The position numbers and the translations under genes are program-made. A stretch of 57,530 nt of DNA from Candidatus Poribacteria bacterium (GTDB taxonomy: Bacteria > Poribacteria > WGA-4E > WGA-3G), in contig JAPOQK010000044.1 in assembly GCA_026710795.1 (NCBI GenBank), forward strand, positions 1 to 57,530, given 5' to 3'. Below are positions 3,525 through 15,379 of this stretch, piece by piece; position 1 is the stretch's first letter, and each line of letters opens with the position of its first letter. The notes beneath the pieces were generated by a model. That model was not told the DNA's origin. It ran no database searches and was given only the letters and a program-made list of their open reading frames with translations.

Positions 3525-3926
3525 GGATTCTTCATTATACTTTTATCTTGTGGTGTGTAAATAGAATAATAACATACTATATTTCATTATAATCTAAAAT
3601 CAATAACACGCTTTTGTAAATCTCTATCCCTCCAAACAGCCAAGTGATCTTTACGATTGCTCTACAGTATCCGTTTAATTCCTGATATATCTTGAGTTAA
3701 ACAATTGTCAGAACTCTAGTTTGATATCACAGTTATCAGACATTACCAAATCTATCAAAACGGTAAATGAATAAAAATCAGTTTTATTTCAATTTTTTTT
3801 CACATTTTGCACGTTTTCCATTCCAAGATAACGTCTATAGAATATCAATCAAATGGAAATACAAACAATCGTCTCAAATTTATGATTTTCGTTCAATGAC
3901 GGAAAACCTTATATTTGGAGGATAAA
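3525..3926. other. Noncoding stretch between the isomerase and M16 genes
   Basis: About 400 AT-rich bases with no convincing ORF, tRNA or strong hairpin. No clear sigma-70 pair precedes the M16 gene. If the sigma factor encoded downstream controls its own locus, its promoter should lie here, but I could not identify a -35/-10 pair by eye. Confidence 0.4.
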
Positions 3927-5231
3927 ATGATCAACAGAATTAAACACACCATAATGATATTCTTCTTTTTTGGTAATCTTTATCTTGTATCCGCTGCACC
4001 ACCGCAAGTGTCTCGCTTTACATTAAGTAATGGTATCAAGGTTGTCAATCTCTACGTTGAGGATTCCACAGATGTTGTTATCATGAGTTATTTACCACTT
4101 GGACTGGTTAGTGATGGGAAAGCAAAGGCACAATGGAGCCATCTTATTGAACACTTGACAATCCGAACTACCGGTCCAATAGATTACCCAACAAGTAGCG
4201 CAGAAACTATGTTTGATAACATGCGCTTGGAATTTCTGGGTTCCACCGATAATTGGACGCATGGATTGGAACTTCATACAAAGTGGCTTTCTGGATTACC
4301 GTTTTCTGAGGAAAGTTTAGCAGAGGAATTACCAAATGCCTTATCCGAAATTGACATTACTGAGCAGAGATTGGCAACTCATAAGTGGGCATCCGCTGCA
4401 TGGAACCAAGTGATACGACACGATGAAACCCACATTGCAATGCGCGGAGATATTCAATCAGCAAAATTGGGTCATTTAGAAGAATACCGTGATCTTCATT
4501 TAGTTCAAGAAGATAGAGTTCTTTTGTGTGTCATCGGTGGACTGGCTACTGAAACTTTGCAGCCAGCAATGGAAGAGAAAATCGGTGCAATCAACATATC
4601 AGCAAAATCACTTCCTCCGGCAACAGTAAGTACTGTGATAAAAAAAGACCGAATTGCTACCTGGGATGTCAATGTAACACACTACATAGAAACTTACGCG
4701 ATACCCAACGCAAAAAATAATGACTATCCAATATTGTATATAGCAAACGCGCTCTTAAACGTTGGACTCAACCAAGATACCCAACTGAAGGAACATACAG
4801 GAGGGATTGTCAGTAGTGTGGATATTGTAACACCTGAACAGACTTATCTACAGATTAGTGCTTCGCTCAAACAAGATGGAGATATAAACGAGGTCAAGGA
4901 GAGAATTCGAATTCAGATAGACCGTACAATGAAACCCAAGAATAACTTTCAGGTAGTGATGGCTGCCCCATCGCTTTCCAAGCAATTCAGTTCACCAATG
5001 GATATAGATATGATGAAGCAATATAAGCAGCAAGGTGTGTCAGAGACTATGATGCTTGGCAACATCGGTCTATGGTGGGGTATGCTTGAATTTCGGTATG
5101 GTGATAATTTACCACACCTCGCAAAAGCGTTAAATAATGTCTCTGCTGTAGATGTTGCAGATGTCACCAACCGATATCTGTCTGAAGATCATCGTATGAC
5201 GTTAATTCTCACACCATTAACTTCTGAATGA
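3927..5231 (+). CDS. Secreted M16-family zinc metallopeptidase-like protein
   Basis: A 434-residue protein beginning with an export signal (basic start, hydrophobic run, cleavage probably near SAAPP). The M16 start FTLSNGIKVV follows. Zinc motif HLIEH is at residues 72-76 and a candidate third ligand Glu at 141 (ALSEIDI). The length fits a full M16B-type subunit with two related halves. M16B enzymes often pair an active with an inactive subunit. The start is ATG 3927, six bases after GGAGG; the longer TTG frame lies on the ribosome site itself. The next gene carries an inactive paralogue fused to a sigma factor and starts 56 bases later. Confidence 0.85.
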   Translation: MINRIKHTIMIFFFFGNLYLVSAAPPQVSRFTLSNGIKVVNLYVEDSTDVVIMSYLPLGLVSDGKAKAQWSHLIEHLTIRTTGPIDYPTSSAETMFDNMRLEFLGSTDNWTHGLELHTKWLSGLPFSEESLAEELPNALSEIDITEQRLATHKWASAAWNQVIRHDETHIAMRGDIQSAKLGHLEEYRDLHLVQEDRVLLCVIGGLATETLQPAMEEKIGAINISAKSLPPATVSTVIKKDRIATWDVNVTHYIETYAIPNAKNNDYPILYIANALLNVGLNQDTQLKEHTGGIVSSVDIVTPEQTYLQISASLKQDGDINEVKERIRIQIDRTMKPKNNFQVVMAAPSLSKQFSSPMDIDMMKQYKQQGVSETMMLGNIGLWWGMLEFRYGDNLPHLAKALNNVSAVDVADVTNRYLSEDHRMTLILTPLTSE

Positions 5232-5287: not shown

Positions 5288-7480
5288 ATGGAACAAGACG
5301 ATGTTCAGTTGATTCATAGAGTCTTATCTGGTAACGATGAGGCATTCAGTACCTTAGTGAAAAAATACCAAAAGACCGTTCATGCACTTGCGTGGAGAAA
5401 GATTGGTGATTTTCACTATGCTGAGGAAATTACCCAAGACACCTTCATTCAAGCATATAAGAAACTCTCAACCCTCAAAGATCGGAAGCAATTTGCTGGA
5501 TGGCTGTATGTCATTGCAAATCGAATTTGCTATGATTGGATGCGAAAACAGAAACCTGTACAGCAATCACTGGGAGACGCTGCAATGCAAGCAGTAGATA
5601 AGCTAACTTATGAACATTATGTATTGGAACAGCGCGAGACTGAAGCGAAAGACCGTAGACATCAGATTGTTAAGCAGCTGTTGGAAAGACTACCAGAGAG
5701 TGAACGCACTGTGGTAACTTTATACTATCTCGGAGAAATGACAGCGAAGGAGATCGGTAAATTCTTGGGTGTATCGGTGAATACAATCACAAGTAGACTC
5801 CAACGCGCTCGAGAACGTTTAAGATCATCTGAAGAGATCTTGATTAATGATACACTTGGCGGTATACCCTTGTCCAACAGCGTAATTGAGAACATCATGC
5901 GGGAAGTTGCTGACATAAAACCGGTACCAAACCCAACTACAAAACCGTATCTTCCATGGACGGCTTTCGGTACAGCAATGGTTTTGGCTATATTAATGCT
6001 AAGTATAAGCAACCAATTTCTTGCAAGATTTCAGGAACCGTATAGTTTCGAAGCAAATTCTCAACCAACTATTGAATTAGTTGATTCATTAGCTTTTGTT
6101 GATATTGATGCAAAACCATCTGTGCGAAATCAAATCGGTAAAACTGACTCTCAGGATGAAAACAGCAGCACCGGATCACAGGTTTCTGGTGAAGCATTAG
6201 CAACTAATACATCAACGAATTTTCCAATGCTTTCTGCATCTAATACCGCACCTAAAGTTGCACGATTTACTTTAAGTAATGGCATCCGTGTTGTCAATCT
6301 TTATGTAGAGAACTCAGCGCAGGTGGGTATTTTCAGTTATTTGCCACTTGGACTCGTTGCAGACGGGAAAGCAAAGGCGCAATGGAGCCAACTCATTAAT
6401 CACTTGACAGTACGTTCCACAGGACCTATTGATATCAATACAAGTGGTGCAGAAACTATGACTGATAATATGCGCTTAGACTACCTTGGAAATTCGGATA
6501 ATTGGTTACAAGGTGTGGAACGACATGCAAATTGGCTTTCAGGATTGCCTTTTACGGAAGAAAGTCTCGCTGAGGAGATCCCAAACGTACTGACCCAAAT
6601 TGACATCGTAGAGAAAAACTTAGCAACGCATAAGTATGCAAATACTGCATGGAACCAAGTCATTAGGCATGGCGAGACCGATATTGCAATACGCGAGAGT
6701 ATTCAATCAGCGCGGTTGAATGAACTTCAAGAATATCGTGATCGACATTTGGTCCAAGCAGATAGCGTTCTTTTGTGTGTAATTGGTGGTGTTGATACCG
6801 AAATACTGAAGCAGACAATGGAACAACATCTGGGATCTATCAACTTGCCAGAAAAAAGATCTCCAAAACCGACAGAGTCAATAGAAACAATGAATGACCT
6901 TAATGCTACTTGGGATATCAACGTAACGCATTATTTGGTAACATACCCGATTCCTCGTCCTGATGACACGGACTATCCAGCACTATTTGTGGCGAGTGTA
7001 CTTCTGAGGTTAGCATGCATACAAGATACTCAGTTGAAAGACCTTGCTGGTTATGTATACAGTGGTGTTGACCTTGTTACACCCGAACAGATATACTTCT
7101 ATATTAGTGCATCACTCAAACCCAATTCAGATATAGAGAAGGTTAAGGAACGGGTTAGTTATCTAATGAACGAGATAAGACAACCTGAAAACAACACGCA
7201 GATTGATATGGTTACATATTGGCTTTCACTGGAACTCGGTGCACCACCAGATATGAAAACACTGATGCAAAATAAACCAGAAAATGTGACAGAGGATATG
7301 TGGCTGCTCCAATTTGGTGTTAGTTGGGGGATGTTGGAATACCAATATGGTGAAACCATGTCACAACTTGCAGCAGCTTTTGCTAATGTCTCTGCAGATG
7401 ATGTTGGCAGTGTTGCCAACCGGTACCTAACTGAAGATCGGAGGATGACGTTACTTCTTACACCACGAGCATCGGAATAA
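5288..7480 (+). CDS. ECF sigma factor fused via a TM segment to a pseudo-M16 domain
   Basis: A 730-residue three-part protein. Residues 15-88 are sigma region 2 (AEEITQDTFIQAYKKL, then FAGWLYVIANR). Residues 125-180 are region 4 (LPESERTVVTLYYLGEM, then the helix-turn-helix ending in RLQRARERLR). Residues 224-246 form one membrane helix, followed by a Ser/Thr/Asn-rich linker. From about 323 onward it is a full-length paralogue of the upstream M16 protein. The zinc site is lost: HLIEH reads QLINH (368-372) and the third ligand Glu reads Gln 437. The sigma part should be cytoplasmic and the M16-like part outside the membrane. GGAGG lies six bases before ATG. No anti-sigma gene is adjacent, so the fused domain may sense (inference). 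Confidence 0.9.
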   Translation: MEQDDVQLIHRVLSGNDEAFSTLVKKYQKTVHALAWRKIGDFHYAEEITQDTFIQAYKKLSTLKDRKQFAGWLYVIANRICYDWMRKQKPVQQSLGDAAMQAVDKLTYEHYVLEQRETEAKDRRHQIVKQLLERLPESERTVVTLYYLGEMTAKEIGKFLGVSVNTITSRLQRARERLRSSEEILINDTLGGIPLSNSVIENIMREVADIKPVPNPTTKPYLPWTAFGTAMVLAILMLSISNQFLARFQEPYSFEANSQPTIELVDSLAFVDIDAKPSVRNQIGKTDSQDENSSTGSQVSGEALATNTSTNFPMLSASNTAPKVARFTLSNGIRVVNLYVENSAQVGIFSYLPLGLVADGKAKAQWSQLINHLTVRSTGPIDINTSGAETMTDNMRLDYLGNSDNWLQGVERHANWLSGLPFTEESLAEEIPNVLTQIDIVEKNLATHKYANTAWNQVIRHGETDIAIRESIQSARLNELQEYRDRHLVQADSVLLCVIGGVDTEILKQTMEQHLGSINLPEKRSPKPTESIETMNDLNATWDINVTHYLVTYPIPRPDDTDYPALFVASVLLRLACIQDTQLKDLAGYVYSGVDLVTPEQIYFYISASLKPNSDIEKVKERVSYLMNEIRQPENNTQIDMVTYWLSLELGAPPDMKTLMQNKPENVTEDMWLLQFGVSWGMLEYQYGETMSQLAAAFANVSADDVGSVANRYLTEDRRMTLLLTPRASE

Positions 7481-11154: not shown

Positions 11155-12192
11155 ATGTATAAAAGTGCGATATTAGGGTGCGGAGGACGTGCCCGAGGAC
11201 ATGCAAGTGCCTATCGCCATGTTACTGGTGGAAAACTCGCAGCAATCTGTGATATGAATGAAGAACGTCTCAACGACTTCGGTGATAAATTCGATATTTC
11301 TACACGATACACAGATTTAGATAAGATGCTTGAAAAAGAGAAACCGGATCTCTTACACATTGTAACTGCCCCTACATTGCGCGGTTCTAATGAACGTATT
11401 CGGTATTCACTTATGAAGCAGGTATCTGACCACGGTGTGCCAGCGACAATTGTTGAAAAACCGATTGCTATTGATAGTGATGACTGGAAACAGATTGCTG
11501 GGTTAGCAGAAGAAACGGAGACGAAGTTCATCGTCAACACACAACTCAACTTCCATCCAAAAAACATTGAATTGAAGCGAGATGTAGCTGAAGGTAAAAT
11601 CGGTGAGATAAAGTTTATTGATGCGAGTGCCAGAAGCACTCCAGTCAATCAGGGACCTCATGTGCTTCAGTTAGTTTCGTCGTATATAGACAATTCTCGA
11701 CCGGTACGGGTATTAGGACAAATATCTGGTAGAGACCGTTTGGATTCAGCAGAACCTTCTCCGATGCATGCTGCCGCGCACGTGATGTACGAAAATGGAC
11801 TTCACGTTTCTGTAGCATTTGGTCCTGGTGTTGGGGCAAATGTATCTCCACATAAAGCCCTTTTCCGACACAAACGCGTTTTTGTTGTTGGAACAGAAGG
11901 ATTTGTTCATTGGCGTTTTAATGGTTGGGAACGTTCTACTCAGAAAGGTGGCTTCGAAAGCGGTCATCTTAACTACGGAGATCAGGATGTTCAAGCACAA
12001 GGAAATCTAACAGAAGCAGTTTTTGATTGGCTTGATGATGAAAACAAGGTGCATCCAACACATCTCAAGCAATCCCTTGCAGAATTCAATTTACTATTAG
12101 GAATATATTACAGTGGTATAACGAATCAGATTATTGAGCTTCCATTTGATCCACCAGATGGATTAATCAATTCTTTGAAAGAGATATTATAG
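11155..12192 (+). CDS. Gfo/Idh/MocA oxidoreductase, array copy 1
   Basis: 345 residues. The Rossmann start is ILGCGGRARGHASAY, and the EKP motif is at 101-103. The substrate domain carries DASARSTPV and PSPMHAAAHVMYENGLHVSV. It is the first of four adjacent genes of identical length, each roughly 80-90 percent alike by eye. Differences concentrate at residues 223-239 and 256-281. In this copy the first variable loop includes GANVSPHKALFR. Expected activity is NAD(P)-linked oxidation or reduction of a sugar-like substrate in the cytoplasm. A GGGAG ribosome site precedes ATG. Confidence 0.9.
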   Translation: MYKSAILGCGGRARGHASAYRHVTGGKLAAICDMNEERLNDFGDKFDISTRYTDLDKMLEKEKPDLLHIVTAPTLRGSNERIRYSLMKQVSDHGVPATIVEKPIAIDSDDWKQIAGLAEETETKFIVNTQLNFHPKNIELKRDVAEGKIGEIKFIDASARSTPVNQGPHVLQLVSSYIDNSRPVRVLGQISGRDRLDSAEPSPMHAAAHVMYENGLHVSVAFGPGVGANVSPHKALFRHKRVFVVGTEGFVHWRFNGWERSTQKGGFESGHLNYGDQDVQAQGNLTEAVFDWLDDENKVHPTHLKQSLAEFNLLLGIYYSGITNQIIELPFDPPDGLINSLKEIL

Positions 12193-12203
12193 GAGAAATA
12201 TAA

Positions 12204-13241
12204 ATGTTTAAAAGTGCTATATTAGGGTGCGGAGGACGTGCAGGTGGTCACGCAAGTGCCTATCGCTTCGTGAAAAGTGGAAAACTCGCAGCAATCTGCG
12301 ATATGAATGAGGAACATCTTAACAATTTCGGTGATAGATTTGAAATCTCTTCACGCTACACAGATTTAGATGAAATGCTTGAAAAAGAGAAACCGGATCT
12401 TCTACATATTGTTACCGCACCAGTATTACGCGGTTCCAACGAACGTATTCGGTATTCACTGATGAAGCAAGCTTCTGACCATGGAGTACCGGCTGCAATT
12501 ATAGAGAAACCGATTACTGTTGATAGTAAAGAATGGAAACAGATCGCTGGTTTAGCAGAGGAAACAAAAACCAAGTTTATTGTCAATACACAACTAAACT
12601 TCCATCCAAAGAATCTTGAATTGAAGCGTGACGTTGCTGAAGGTAAGATTGGAGAGTTAAAGTTTATTGATGCAAGTGCGAGAAGCACGCCAGTAGACCA
12701 AGGACCACATGTGCTTCAGTTAGTTTCGTCCTATATTGATAATTCTCGTCCGGTCCGGGTTTTAGGTCAAATTTCAGGAAGAGATCATTTAGAATCCGCT
12801 CAACCATCACCGATGCATGCAGCTGCACACGTTATGTATGAAAATGGACTCCACGTTTCTGTGGCATTTGGTCAGGGAGTAGGTACAATGGCATCTGATG
12901 ATCAAGGTATTTATTGCCACAAACGTGTATTTGTAGTCGGAACAGAAGGATTTGTGCATTGGCGTTTTAGTAGCTGGGAACGTGCAACACGTGAGGGCGG
13001 ATACGAAGGTGGTCCACTCAGCTATGGTGAGCAGGATGTTGAAGCACAAGGTAACCTTACAGAAGCTGCCTTTGCATGGCTTGATGATGAAAAAAATCAA
13101 CATCCGACGCATTTAAAGCAATCACTTGCTGAGTTTAATCTACTATTAGGCATTTATCATAGCGGAATCACGAACAAGATAATTGATCTTCCATTTGACC
13201 CTCCGGATGGATTAATGGACTCTCTCAGGGAAAACCTATAG
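12204..13241 (+). CDS. Gfo/Idh/MocA oxidoreductase, array copy 2
   Basis: 345 residues, the same architecture as copy 1 with EKP at 101-103 and the same HAAAHVMYENG segment. Its first variable loop reads GTMASDDQGIYC and the second includes ATREGGYEGG. It starts 11 bases after copy 1, and the TAG stop of copy 1 is part of the TAGGAG ribosome site of this gene, so expression is probably coupled. It is closest to copy 3 in the C-terminal third, including EKNQHPTHLKQSLAEF. Confidence 0.9.
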   Translation: MFKSAILGCGGRAGGHASAYRFVKSGKLAAICDMNEEHLNNFGDRFEISSRYTDLDEMLEKEKPDLLHIVTAPVLRGSNERIRYSLMKQASDHGVPAAIIEKPITVDSKEWKQIAGLAEETKTKFIVNTQLNFHPKNLELKRDVAEGKIGELKFIDASARSTPVDQGPHVLQLVSSYIDNSRPVRVLGQISGRDHLESAQPSPMHAAAHVMYENGLHVSVAFGQGVGTMASDDQGIYCHKRVFVVGTEGFVHWRFSSWERATREGGYEGGPLSYGEQDVEAQGNLTEAAFAWLDDEKNQHPTHLKQSLAEFNLLLGIYHSGITNKIIDLPFDPPDGLMDSLRENL

Positions 13242-13252
13242 GAGATATTTAT

Positions 13253-14290
13253 ATGTATAAAAGTGCATTTTTAGGTTGTGGTGGTCGTGCGCGCGCACAT
13301 GCAAGTGCATATCGTTTTGTAAAAAGTGGCAAAATAGCTGCCATCTGCGACATGAATGAAGAACAACTCAATCGGTTCGGAGACGATTTTGATGTATCCT
13401 CTCGTTATACAGATTTAGACGAGATGCTTGAAAAAGAGAAGCCAGACCTTCTTCATATTGTCACAGCACCAGTATTACGTGGAACGAATCAACGTATCCG
13501 TTACCCGTTGATGAAGCAAGCATCAGACCATGGCGTACCTGCTGCGATAATTGAAAAACCGATCGCTGTTGAGAGTGAAGACTGGAAGCAGATTGCTGGA
13601 TTGGCGGAAGAGACAAAGACAAAGTTTATTGTCAATACGCAGCTAAACTTCCATCCCAAAAACCTTGAATTAAAGCAGGATGTATCGGAAGGAAAAATCG
13701 GAGAGATAAAGTTTATTGATGCCAGTGCCAGAAGCACGCCTGTTGATCAAGCACCGCACGTCTTACAATTAGTATCGTCTTACATTGACAATTCCCGTCC
13801 TACCCGTGTGTTAGGTCAAATATCTGGCAAAGAGCAGTTAGATTCTGCACAACCATCTCCGATGCATGCAGCTGGACAGGTGATATATGATAACGGTCTA
13901 CATGTATCAGTCGCATTTGGGACAGGTGTAGGTACGATGGCATCTGACAATCAAGGTGTACACTGTCACAAACGGGTCTTTGTCGTTGGAACTGAAGGAT
14001 TTGTGCACTGGCGTTTTAGTAGTTGGGAACGCGCTACACGTGCGAATGGCTACGAGGGTGGACCACTCAATTATGGCGAACAAGATATTGAGGCACAAGG
14101 AAACCTTACAGAAGCAGCCTTTGCATGGCTTGATGATGAGAAAAATCAACATCCGACCCATCTCAAACAGTCTCTTGCTGAGTTCAATCTGCTTTTAGGT
14201 ATTTACTACAGTGGGATAACTAATAAGATAATTGATCTACCGTTTGAACCACCAGACGGTTTAATGGATTCACTTAGAGAGAAGTTGTAA
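13253..14290 (+). CDS. Gfo/Idh/MocA oxidoreductase, array copy 3
   Basis: 345 residues, again starting 11 bases after its predecessor with the stop codon inside the ribosome site. It shares FLGCGGRARAHASAY, ISGKEQLDSAQ and DQAPHVLQ with copy 4, but the loop GTMASDNQGVHC and the C-terminal EKNQHPTHLKQ with copy 2. The pattern fits stepwise tandem duplication, possibly with recombination among copies. EKP is intact. Confidence 0.9.
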   Translation: MYKSAFLGCGGRARAHASAYRFVKSGKIAAICDMNEEQLNRFGDDFDVSSRYTDLDEMLEKEKPDLLHIVTAPVLRGTNQRIRYPLMKQASDHGVPAAIIEKPIAVESEDWKQIAGLAEETKTKFIVNTQLNFHPKNLELKQDVSEGKIGEIKFIDASARSTPVDQAPHVLQLVSSYIDNSRPTRVLGQISGKEQLDSAQPSPMHAAGQVIYDNGLHVSVAFGTGVGTMASDNQGVHCHKRVFVVGTEGFVHWRFSSWERATRANGYEGGPLNYGEQDIEAQGNLTEAAFAWLDDEKNQHPTHLKQSLAEFNLLLGIYYSGITNKIIDLPFEPPDGLMDSLREKL

Positions 14291-14341
14291 TTAATAGATA
14301 AAATTTCCACACGGTATAACAAAGTTTATGGAGGAATAAAC

Positions 14342-15379
14342 ATGTATAAAAGTGCATTTTTAGGTTGTGGTGGACGTGCGCGCGCACATGCCAGCGCATA
14401 TAGATTTGTAAAAGGTGGTAAAATAGCTGCGATCTGTGATATGAACGAAGATTTACTCAAAAAGTTTGGCGATGACTTTGATGTATCATCGCGTTACACA
14501 GATTTAGATGAAATGCTTGAAAAAGAGAAACCGGATCTTCTCCACATTGTTACTGCTCCAGTGTTACGTGGAACCAACCAGCGTATCCGTTATTCGTTGA
14601 TGAAACAAGCATCAGACCATGGTGTTCCAGCGGCGATTGTTGAAAAACCGATTGCTGTGGAAAGTGAAGACTGGAAGCAAATTGCTGGATTGGCGGAAGA
14701 GACAAAGACGAAATTTATTGTCAATACACAACTAAACTTCCATCCCAAAAACCTTGAACTGAAACAGGATGTAGCAGATGGTAAAATTGGAGAGATCAAA
14801 TTTATAGATGCAAGTGCTCGTAGTACACCAGTAGACCAAGCACCACATGTATTGCAGCTGGTATCGTCTTATATTGATAACTCTCGTCCTACCCGTGTGA
14901 TGGGTCAAATATCTGGTAAGGAACAATTAGATTCCGCTCAGCCATCACCAATGCATGCTGCTGCGCAAGCAATATATGATAATGGACTACATGTTTCACT
15001 TGCTTTTGGAACAGGTATGGGTACATTGGCATCTGAGACAGGTGGAACAGTAACACACAAACGTGTTTTTGTAGTTGGTACAAAAGGCTTTGTACATTGG
15101 CGGTTTAGCAGTTGGGAGCGTTCCACACATGATGGTGGTTATGAGGGCGGTCCCCTAAACTATGGTGAACAGGATACCCAAGCACAAGGCAACCTTACTG
15201 AAGCAGCCTTTGATTGGCTTGATGATGAAAAAAATGTACATCCAACACACCTTAAGCAATCTCTTGCTGAGTTTAACCTGCTGTTAGGAATATACTATAG
15301 CGGCATAACCAATCAGATCATTGACCTACCTTTTGACCCTCCTGATGGGTTAATGGATTCTCTCAGAGAGAAATTGTAG
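14342..15379 (+). CDS. Gfo/Idh/MocA oxidoreductase, array copy 4
   Basis: 345 residues and the last array member, separated from copy 3 by 51 bases instead of 11 and carrying its own strong TGGAGG ribosome site. The first variable loop, GTLASETGGTVT, differs from all others. One change of a conserved residue is VVGTKGF instead of VVGTEGF. EKP is intact. The array is followed by two small hairpins and a convergent lipoprotein gene. Confidence 0.9.
   Translation: MYKSAFLGCGGRARAHASAYRFVKGGKIAAICDMNEDLLKKFGDDFDVSSRYTDLDEMLEKEKPDLLHIVTAPVLRGTNQRIRYSLMKQASDHGVPAAIVEKPIAVESEDWKQIAGLAEETKTKFIVNTQLNFHPKNLELKQDVADGKIGEIKFIDASARSTPVDQAPHVLQLVSSYIDNSRPTRVMGQISGKEQLDSAQPSPMHAAAQAIYDNGLHVSLAFGTGMGTLASETGGTVTHKRVFVVGTKGFVHWRFSSWERSTHDGGYEGGPLNYGEQDTQAQGNLTEAAFDWLDDEKNVHPTHLKQSLAEFNLLLGIYYSGITNQIIDLPFDPPDGLMDSLREKL

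Follow-up and report, generated by a model that had tools for sequence, protein, structure and literature searches.

How can one protein combine an ECF-type sigma factor with a membrane helix and a domain that resembles a protease but lacks the catalytic residue, and what would such a protein do? The gene that raises this question lies in a stretch of 57,530 nt from a Candidatus Poribacteria bacterium (contig JAPOQK010000044.1 of assembly GCA_026710795.1, positions 1 to 57,530, forward strand), the whole of which we call the window. It occupies positions 5288–7480 on the forward strand, as do all features of the window given below, and encodes 730 amino acids in one uninterrupted ORF, with an ATG start preceded by GGAGG. 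Sigma region 2 is found at residues 23–89 (5354–5554; PF04542, Sigma70_r2, E = 2e-14) and sigma region 4 at residues 126–178 (5663–5821; PF08281, Sigma70_r4_2, E = 8e-16), and the fusion scores above the cut-off of the NCBIfam superfamily model sigma70-ECF. The layout is of the ECF type, with regions 2 and 4 present and the region 3 family absent from the 13 Pfam families listed. Both databases thus agree with the sequence-only reading, which had seen the two ECF regions in one chain. We take the -35 recognition helix to be residues 163–172 of region 4 (5774–5803), which include Thr168.

The sigma regions are followed by a cytoplasmic linker (residues 181–221, 5828–5950) that resembles those of paralogs, with a mean commonest-residue frequency of 0.56 over 43 sequences (the window's own and 42 others from the stretches examined, each a fused sigma ORF no shorter than 400 aa). 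The linker contains no Cys or His, and zf-HC2 is not among the fusion's Pfam matches; a zinc finger of the ECF52 style between sigma factor and membrane was thus not encountered. Many anti-sigma factors carry zf-HC2 domains, of which we found six matches in the genome and none in the window. A single transmembrane helix is predicted at about residues 222–243 (5951–6016) from a hydropathy scan and the alignment of paralogs. The 19-residue Kyte-Doolittle scan shows one hydrophobic stretch, at 222–240, so that the single helix proposed earlier stands, with limits somewhat different from the 224–246 first given. Outside the helix lie a juxtamembrane segment (244–290, 6017–6157) with the pattern FQxPYSxxAxSExTxE, common to membrane paralogs with differing ectodomains, and a fast-evolving stalk (291–322, 6158–6253; dN/dS 0.15–1.24 in 7 ortholog pairs).

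The ectodomain (residues 323–730, 6254–7477) belongs to the M16 fold family. Peptidase_M16_C (PF05193) is matched at residues 477–631 (E = 1.4e-10), and a profile of the family (alignment A2, 37 sequences) aligns through its positions 25–339 with the H. pylori protease 5euf (E = 3e-8); 5euf is the sole solved structure at E ≤ 1, and the HxxEH motifs are in register. The best solved-structure matches (Foldseek) of an AlphaFold model of the upstream gene product, an M16-type twin, are also M16B proteins; the model has a mean pLDDT of 58 and served for fold family only. The full-length M16 domain of the sequence-only reading is therefore backed by Pfam at its C-terminal part and by the profile match, while its N-domain has no Pfam match of its own. 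The AlphaFold model of the fusion itself is poor (mean pLDDT 47), and consequently its ectodomain fold and topology rest on sequence. The predicted orientation, with the sigma factor inside and the M16 domain outside, is supported indirectly, by the N-terminus of the twin, which looks like a signal peptide by eye and where the hydropathy scan stayed below threshold.

In place of HxxEH, the fusion reads QLINH (368–372, 6389–6403), and its Gln437 (6596–6598) aligns with Glu145 of the twin (numbered in a 438-aa ORF), which we take to be the third zinc ligand; the HMMER alignment with 5euf puts that Glu about one column off. Both departures had been noticed from the sequence and were confirmed, and the fusion lacks the combination of HxxEH and third-ligand Glu by which we recognized active M16 proteins. 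A protein search with residues 320–730 returned 271 matches at E ≤ 1e-3, and we tallied motifs in the 120 matches listed together with the window's two proteins. These comprise 96 sigma-fused and 26 unfused sequences, after five sigma-bearing sequences, of which three are truncated in their sigma part, were moved by hand from a scripted sorting of 91 and 31. Among the matches listed, none of the 96 sigma-fused proteins retains the HxxEH Glu, which Asn, Met or Thr replaces; these 96 are not independent, because four listed sequences are near-identical to the window's. HLIEH and the third Glu are kept in 26 of 26 unfused relatives. By hand count, the sigma-fused proteins retain the first His in 72 of 96 cases, the second in 60 and the third Glu in 16. 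The motif loss first described in the window therefore extends, for the catalytic Glu, to all of these listed sigma-fused proteins, but their third ligand varies (Gln in 80, Glu in 16), and the first His lost in QLINH is mostly present elsewhere. That the fusion's M16 motif is catalytically incompetent is a supported prediction.

An error of assembly or a frameshift could also have joined two genes near residues 210–320. In a scan of one genome per species (84,980 genomes), 125 places were confirmed, and the best 80, every one titled Poribacteria, were retained. Eight of the best 80 loci cover the whole query, and each reads as one frame, on contigs of 4.3 kb to 5.3 Mb. The same domain order, which the sequence-only reading had proposed to seek elsewhere, thus recurs at full length in other Poribacteria MAGs, and an artefact is excluded.

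The twin lies directly upstream of the fusion gene (3927–5231) and is 58% identical to the fused ectodomain. It starts at ATG 3927 and has 434 aa, as in its orthologs; the ORF list begins it at TTG 3915. With HLIEH and the third Glu, the twin is motif-intact and predicted to be secreted. Both twin and ectodomain belong to the family of the M16B peptidases, which includes 5euf, PA0371-PA0372 and the mitochondrial processing peptidase; the fusion differs from these in lacking the catalytic Glu and in being joined to a sigma factor.

We searched 84 genomes of the phylum with the twin and found matches in 38, which were labelled by hand. Twin and fusion are adjacent on the same strand, twin first, in 23 of the 84 genomes (24 pairs, one genome having two). 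Five genomes gave a twin but no detected fusion, the twin of G049 lying at a contig end, and four have a fusion without a twin, two at contig ends (G031 and G050) and two in one-contig genomes (G082 and G083). Four further genomes have fragments only (G053, G056, G060 and G076), and one has a distant partial match, apart from which all matches are confined to one family of the phylum. Because G082 and G083 have the fusion without the twin, and five genomes the twin without a detected fusion, the pairing is common, not obligatory. In one more genome, G039, twin and fusion lie near contig ends that carry a similar ORF (L140:7449-7845 and L141:7481-7939), with nearly the same start, MIMG.PIMLTFYDTNILMKLEKIYE; an insertion may have interrupted the assembly here. 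Exchange by gene conversion between the two genes is not supported, the nearest relative of the fused domain being its own twin in only 0 or 1 of 13 genomes per domain quarter.

The surroundings of these genes vary in other ways. In G049, the gene after the M16 twin encodes a fused sigma factor that has LRR and GHL15-like domains instead of M16, with an LRR protein adjoining (L142:2527-5199). Three twins are long, at 684–689 aa (L038:2880-4934, L149:3651-5720 and L151:3720-5774); the C-terminal extension of the L038 twin weakly matches LolA_like (E = 0.003), and the L149 copy is without that match. We found no relatives of the G083 fusion on viral contigs. Elsewhere in the window, positions 11155–15379 hold four successive 345-aa ORFs, the first three closely similar by translation.

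The fusion is one of many in its genome. The whole protein has 61 matches there, twin included, and by hand count, 45 of the matches bear a sigma factor and belong to open frames no shorter than 400 aa. Membrane paralogs have the linker, the helix and the outer juxtamembrane segment in common despite differing ectodomains. This 110-aa module (residues 181–290) has 34 matches in the genome and occurs in 67 of the 84 phylum genomes: in every one of the 58 that belong to the same family, with 1 to 56 matches each, in 9 of 14 of other families in the order and in 0 of 12 more distant ones. A Pfam survey of fused proteins, 19 from this genome and three from elsewhere, identified ectodomains of the BNR/sortilin, WD40 and C-type lectin kinds, an LRR with a glycosyl-hydrolase-like domain, and an S9 peptidase, the last in a protein without a membrane helix; three of the 19 have no ectodomain Pfam family. 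Fused sigma factors without a membrane helix are found in the same genome at L115:588-8480, L129:2185-4977 and L130:524-8131, the S9 peptidase domain being at L130:5294-8131. A lectin-type gene stands beside lectin-bearing sigma factors at L119 and L113, and the twin arrangement may thus recur with other ectodomains. Among 41 fusions examined, 16 have a non-sigma relative, and the best one adjoins in 5 of these; the 88 genes compared are biased towards neighbours.

ECF sigma factors direct RNA polymerase to promoters of the AAC/CGTC type. Fitting a two-block model to the 200-bp upstream regions of 40 fusion genes of this genome gave a -35 block TTATGCA[AC]CC and a -10 block [CT]GCGTCA[CT]T. 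The spacer is 14 or 15 in all but two of the 38 used (36 of 38). Established ECF consensus patterns (GGAAC and similar) showed no enrichment. A promoter-like site resembling the AAC/CGTC type, at a score of at least 14.5, precedes 35 of the 40 fusion genes compared to 4 of 122 other genes, counted in-sample. The exact pattern occurs 17 times in the genome, compared to 2 for the reversed pattern, and 13 of the 17 are directly before fusion genes. The four exact matches away from fusion genes (G000:C31:19430, C31:68316, C79:11373 and C110:31245) are further targets or chance. In other genomes the contrast is weaker, a score of at least 14 being reached by 33 of 76 fusion genes and 24 of 360 controls.

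A site of this type also precedes the M16 pair, in line with the shared promoter motif that the sequence-only reading had suggested looking for. It lies at 3805–3838, with a -35 block TTTTGCACGT (3805–3814), a 15-bp spacer and a -10 block AACGTCTAT (3830–3838), and is the best site for the paralog PWM in 3525–3920, with a score of 9.8 that 5 of 300 dinucleotide shuffles reach. As a PWM match it is weak, since the window (57.5 kb) has at least 12 further sites that score 13.2–18.1 (spacers 12–19), and its weight therefore comes from recurrence in relatives and not from its score. Scanning 32 stretches of this locus, duplicates included, gave the same type of site in 22. The stretch of the fusion-only genome G083 (L135) has a variant, a paralog-type site directly before the fusion. 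Nine of the 32 are without the site, and in five of these the contig stops at or before the upstream part, or that part is on a different contig. In the twin-only genomes, it is absent from L136 and L137 and present in L138 and L139. Across 18 aligned locus sites (three in fragment-only loci), identity is 0.91, compared to 0.74 and 0.68 in the flanks, although these sites were picked by the pattern, a choice that favours site over flanks. Directly before the window's fusion gene, the promoter is absent (score -3.0). In some relatives, the promoter-like site is separated from the M16 genes or remnants by an ORF of 187–201 aa (L134:7149-7754, L145:4910-5515, L146:4054-4659 and L149:2877-3440), whose L149 copy has no Pfam match.

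Does each sigma factor read its own promoter? In 35 genes of this genome, -35 bases covary with residues 163–172 more than with other sigma residues (median z 2.5 vs 0.1; p = 1.4e-8, the pairs not being independent). The same covariation in 36 genes of other genomes is not significant (p = 0.28), and region 2 shows no enriched covariation with the -10 in either gene set. We then compared residue 168 with the base following TGCA[AC] in 115 fusion genes, 48 of which have a recognizable -35 and 67 no match to the pattern. With Lys or Arg at residue 168 the base is C in 35 of 35 cases; among the 13 genes with Thr, Asn or Asp, 11 have G there. The p-values (1.3e-4 for Thr/Asn/Ser vs the rest and 3e-9 for basic vs non-basic residues, across clades that are not independent) are post hoc, because the final pattern was written after the sequences were inspected; earlier forms of it, too strict or wrong, gave no signal. 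In the M16 clade, Thr168 is found in 15 of 16 loci, and the sites aligned at this locus carry G. The sixteenth locus, that of G083, has a different sigma factor with Arg168, and a C-type site directly upstream of the fusion. A promoter and the 5' end of its gene, if inherited together, can mimic recognition. Since the pattern was set after the data and promoter and gene may travel together, the evidence that the sigma factor would regulate itself through its own promoter is good but not conclusive.

Among known systems, the nearest are other sigma factors and anti-sigma factors with outer domains. ECF52 SCO4117 of Streptomyces coelicolor, like the fusion, joins an ECF sigma factor, a transmembrane region and a C-terminal binding domain in one chain, and positive autoregulation has been suggested for it; in the available part of that source, ECF52 is confined to Actinobacteria and has a zinc finger, a proline-rich stretch and a carbohydrate-binding domain of its own (PMC5826349). 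The fusion shows no zinc finger and carries a pseudo-M16 as its outer domain. IutY of Pseudomonas putida (ECF243) is likewise a sigma factor joined to a membrane-bound regulator and freed by proteolysis, its partner being an iron-starvation anti-sigma factor, unlike the fusion's M16 domain. The accessible text of PMC8999054 presents IutY as the one membrane-fused ECF with an experimentally characterized activation, and counts IutY and ECF52 among the groups with extensions that are activated by proteolysis. The WD40-bearing ECF57 is similar to the fusion in its long repeat-domain extension; regulation through protein interaction is proposed for it, and a membrane-tethered pseudoprotease goes unmentioned in that portion of the source (PMC8999054). 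In Clostridium thermocellum, parallel SigI/RsgI circuits each have their own outer sensor, including glycosidase and S1C peptidase-like domains, on a separate anti-sigma protein, according to the part of PMC12203970 available; here, sigma factor and sensor are one ORF.

The literature searched contained no ECF description of a sigma factor fused to peptidase M16, nothing on WD40 or C-terminally extended ECF sigma factors of Planctomycetes, and no description of poribacterial ECF sigma factors, although an ECF group for the family could exist beyond it. A paper on poribacterial repeat proteins (PMC3909097) mentions neither sigma nor ECF in a term search. On membrane sigma factors the searches gave only methanobactin work, and of the pseudoprotease papers listed, none by title concerns a sigma-fused protease domain. 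The novelty first supposed for this gene is therefore narrower: a pseudo-M16 domain on a sigma factor was not met in the literature searched, but chains of sigma factor, membrane helix and ectodomain are known, and a peptidase-like sensor has already been described on the anti-sigma side. The fusion is a variation on these known designs, from which its pseudo-M16 outer domain on the sigma factor itself differs.

Our preferred reading, to which we give a probability of about 0.55, is that a single chain acts as a membrane sigma factor that regulates itself and whose sensor can be exchanged; in this case the sensor would be a pseudoprotease whose gene stands with that of an active-looking twin. 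The outer domain would bind a ligand, and the freed sigma factor would transcribe the pair. Such a chain may do without a separate anti-sigma factor, as the sequence-only reading proposed. The M16 domain likely senses something outside the membrane. It would lie in the periplasm and recognize the twin's kind of peptide, or the twin itself, without cutting it, and the sigma factor inside would be held back by the tether or the linker until ligand arrives. Binding would alter the conserved juxtamembrane segment and release the sigma factor, most likely by regulated intramembrane proteolysis. A site-2 type Peptidase_M50 has a full-length match in the genome (PF02163 at C60, E = 2e-65), and we identified no site-1 cleavage site in the fusion. 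The freed sigma factor would then read the promoter of its own pair, as the promoter evidence suggests, and so produce more protease and more sensor. With other ectodomains, the same chassis would run parallel circuits within one cell.

Alternatively, the sigma-bound dead domain could be the inactive subunit of the secreted twin, in which case the sigma factor would sense assembly of the enzyme and not its substrate. M16B proteases can act as an active and an inactive subunit, and motif-intact and motif-dead genes are neighbours in the 23 genomes counted above. PA0372, from the heterodimeric protease PA0371-PA0372, ranks third among the solved structures that match the twin's model (mean pLDDT 58), with an rmsd above 10. 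Twin and ectodomain, however, are close paralogs (58%), and each occurs without the other, the fusion in G082 and G083 and the twin in five genomes without a detected fusion. We consider such a tether unlikely.

Another possibility is that no proteolytic release takes place, and that the sigma factor acts from the membrane or through a conformational change passed along the linker. The linker and the juxtamembrane segment are conserved across the aligned membrane members, and the relatives at L115, L129 and L130 are without a membrane helix, so that the tether is not required for every member. IutY, in contrast, is cleaved by Prc and RseP, as stated in the available part of PMC8999054, and we hold this alternative to be as doubtful as the preceding one.

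Selection on the gene bears on whether the preferred reading, in which the dead domain is a sensor, should be replaced by one in which it has no role. Nei-Gojobori dN/dS over 7 ortholog pairs is 0.08–0.16 for the sigma part, 0.15–0.52 for the linker, helix and juxtamembrane segment together, and 0.14–0.25 for the dead M16 domain; the twin has 0.20–0.28 over 5 pairs. Based on these values, the predicted dead domain is maintained by purifying selection. That the ectodomain is a relic, left on the sigma factor by an accident of domain shuffling, is very improbable: the fragment-only loci of G053, G056, G060 and G076 indicate that the locus can decay, but the dN/dS of the domain and the catalytic Glu, absent from all sigma-fused and kept in all unfused proteins among the matches listed, argue against it.

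The self-regulating membrane sigma factor may be one instance of a system of swappable receptors, a generalization that we place a little short of even odds. Tens of transmembrane sigma factors per genome would each have their own ectodomain (pseudoprotease, lectin, beta-propeller or LRR-hydrolase) and a co-tuned promoter, and the dead copy of a protease would sense the substrate of the protease that it controls. Sigma-based signalling from outside to inside usually employs a sigma factor and an anti-sigma factor, whereas here the sigma factor itself appears to span the membrane. One lineage has multiplied this sigma-membrane module, with exchangeable outer domains and between 1 and 56 matches in each genome of the window's family. 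Within it, the M16 case places a pseudoenzyme domain beside a motif-intact twin, with a defined promoter and a predicted rule that links a sigma residue to a promoter base.
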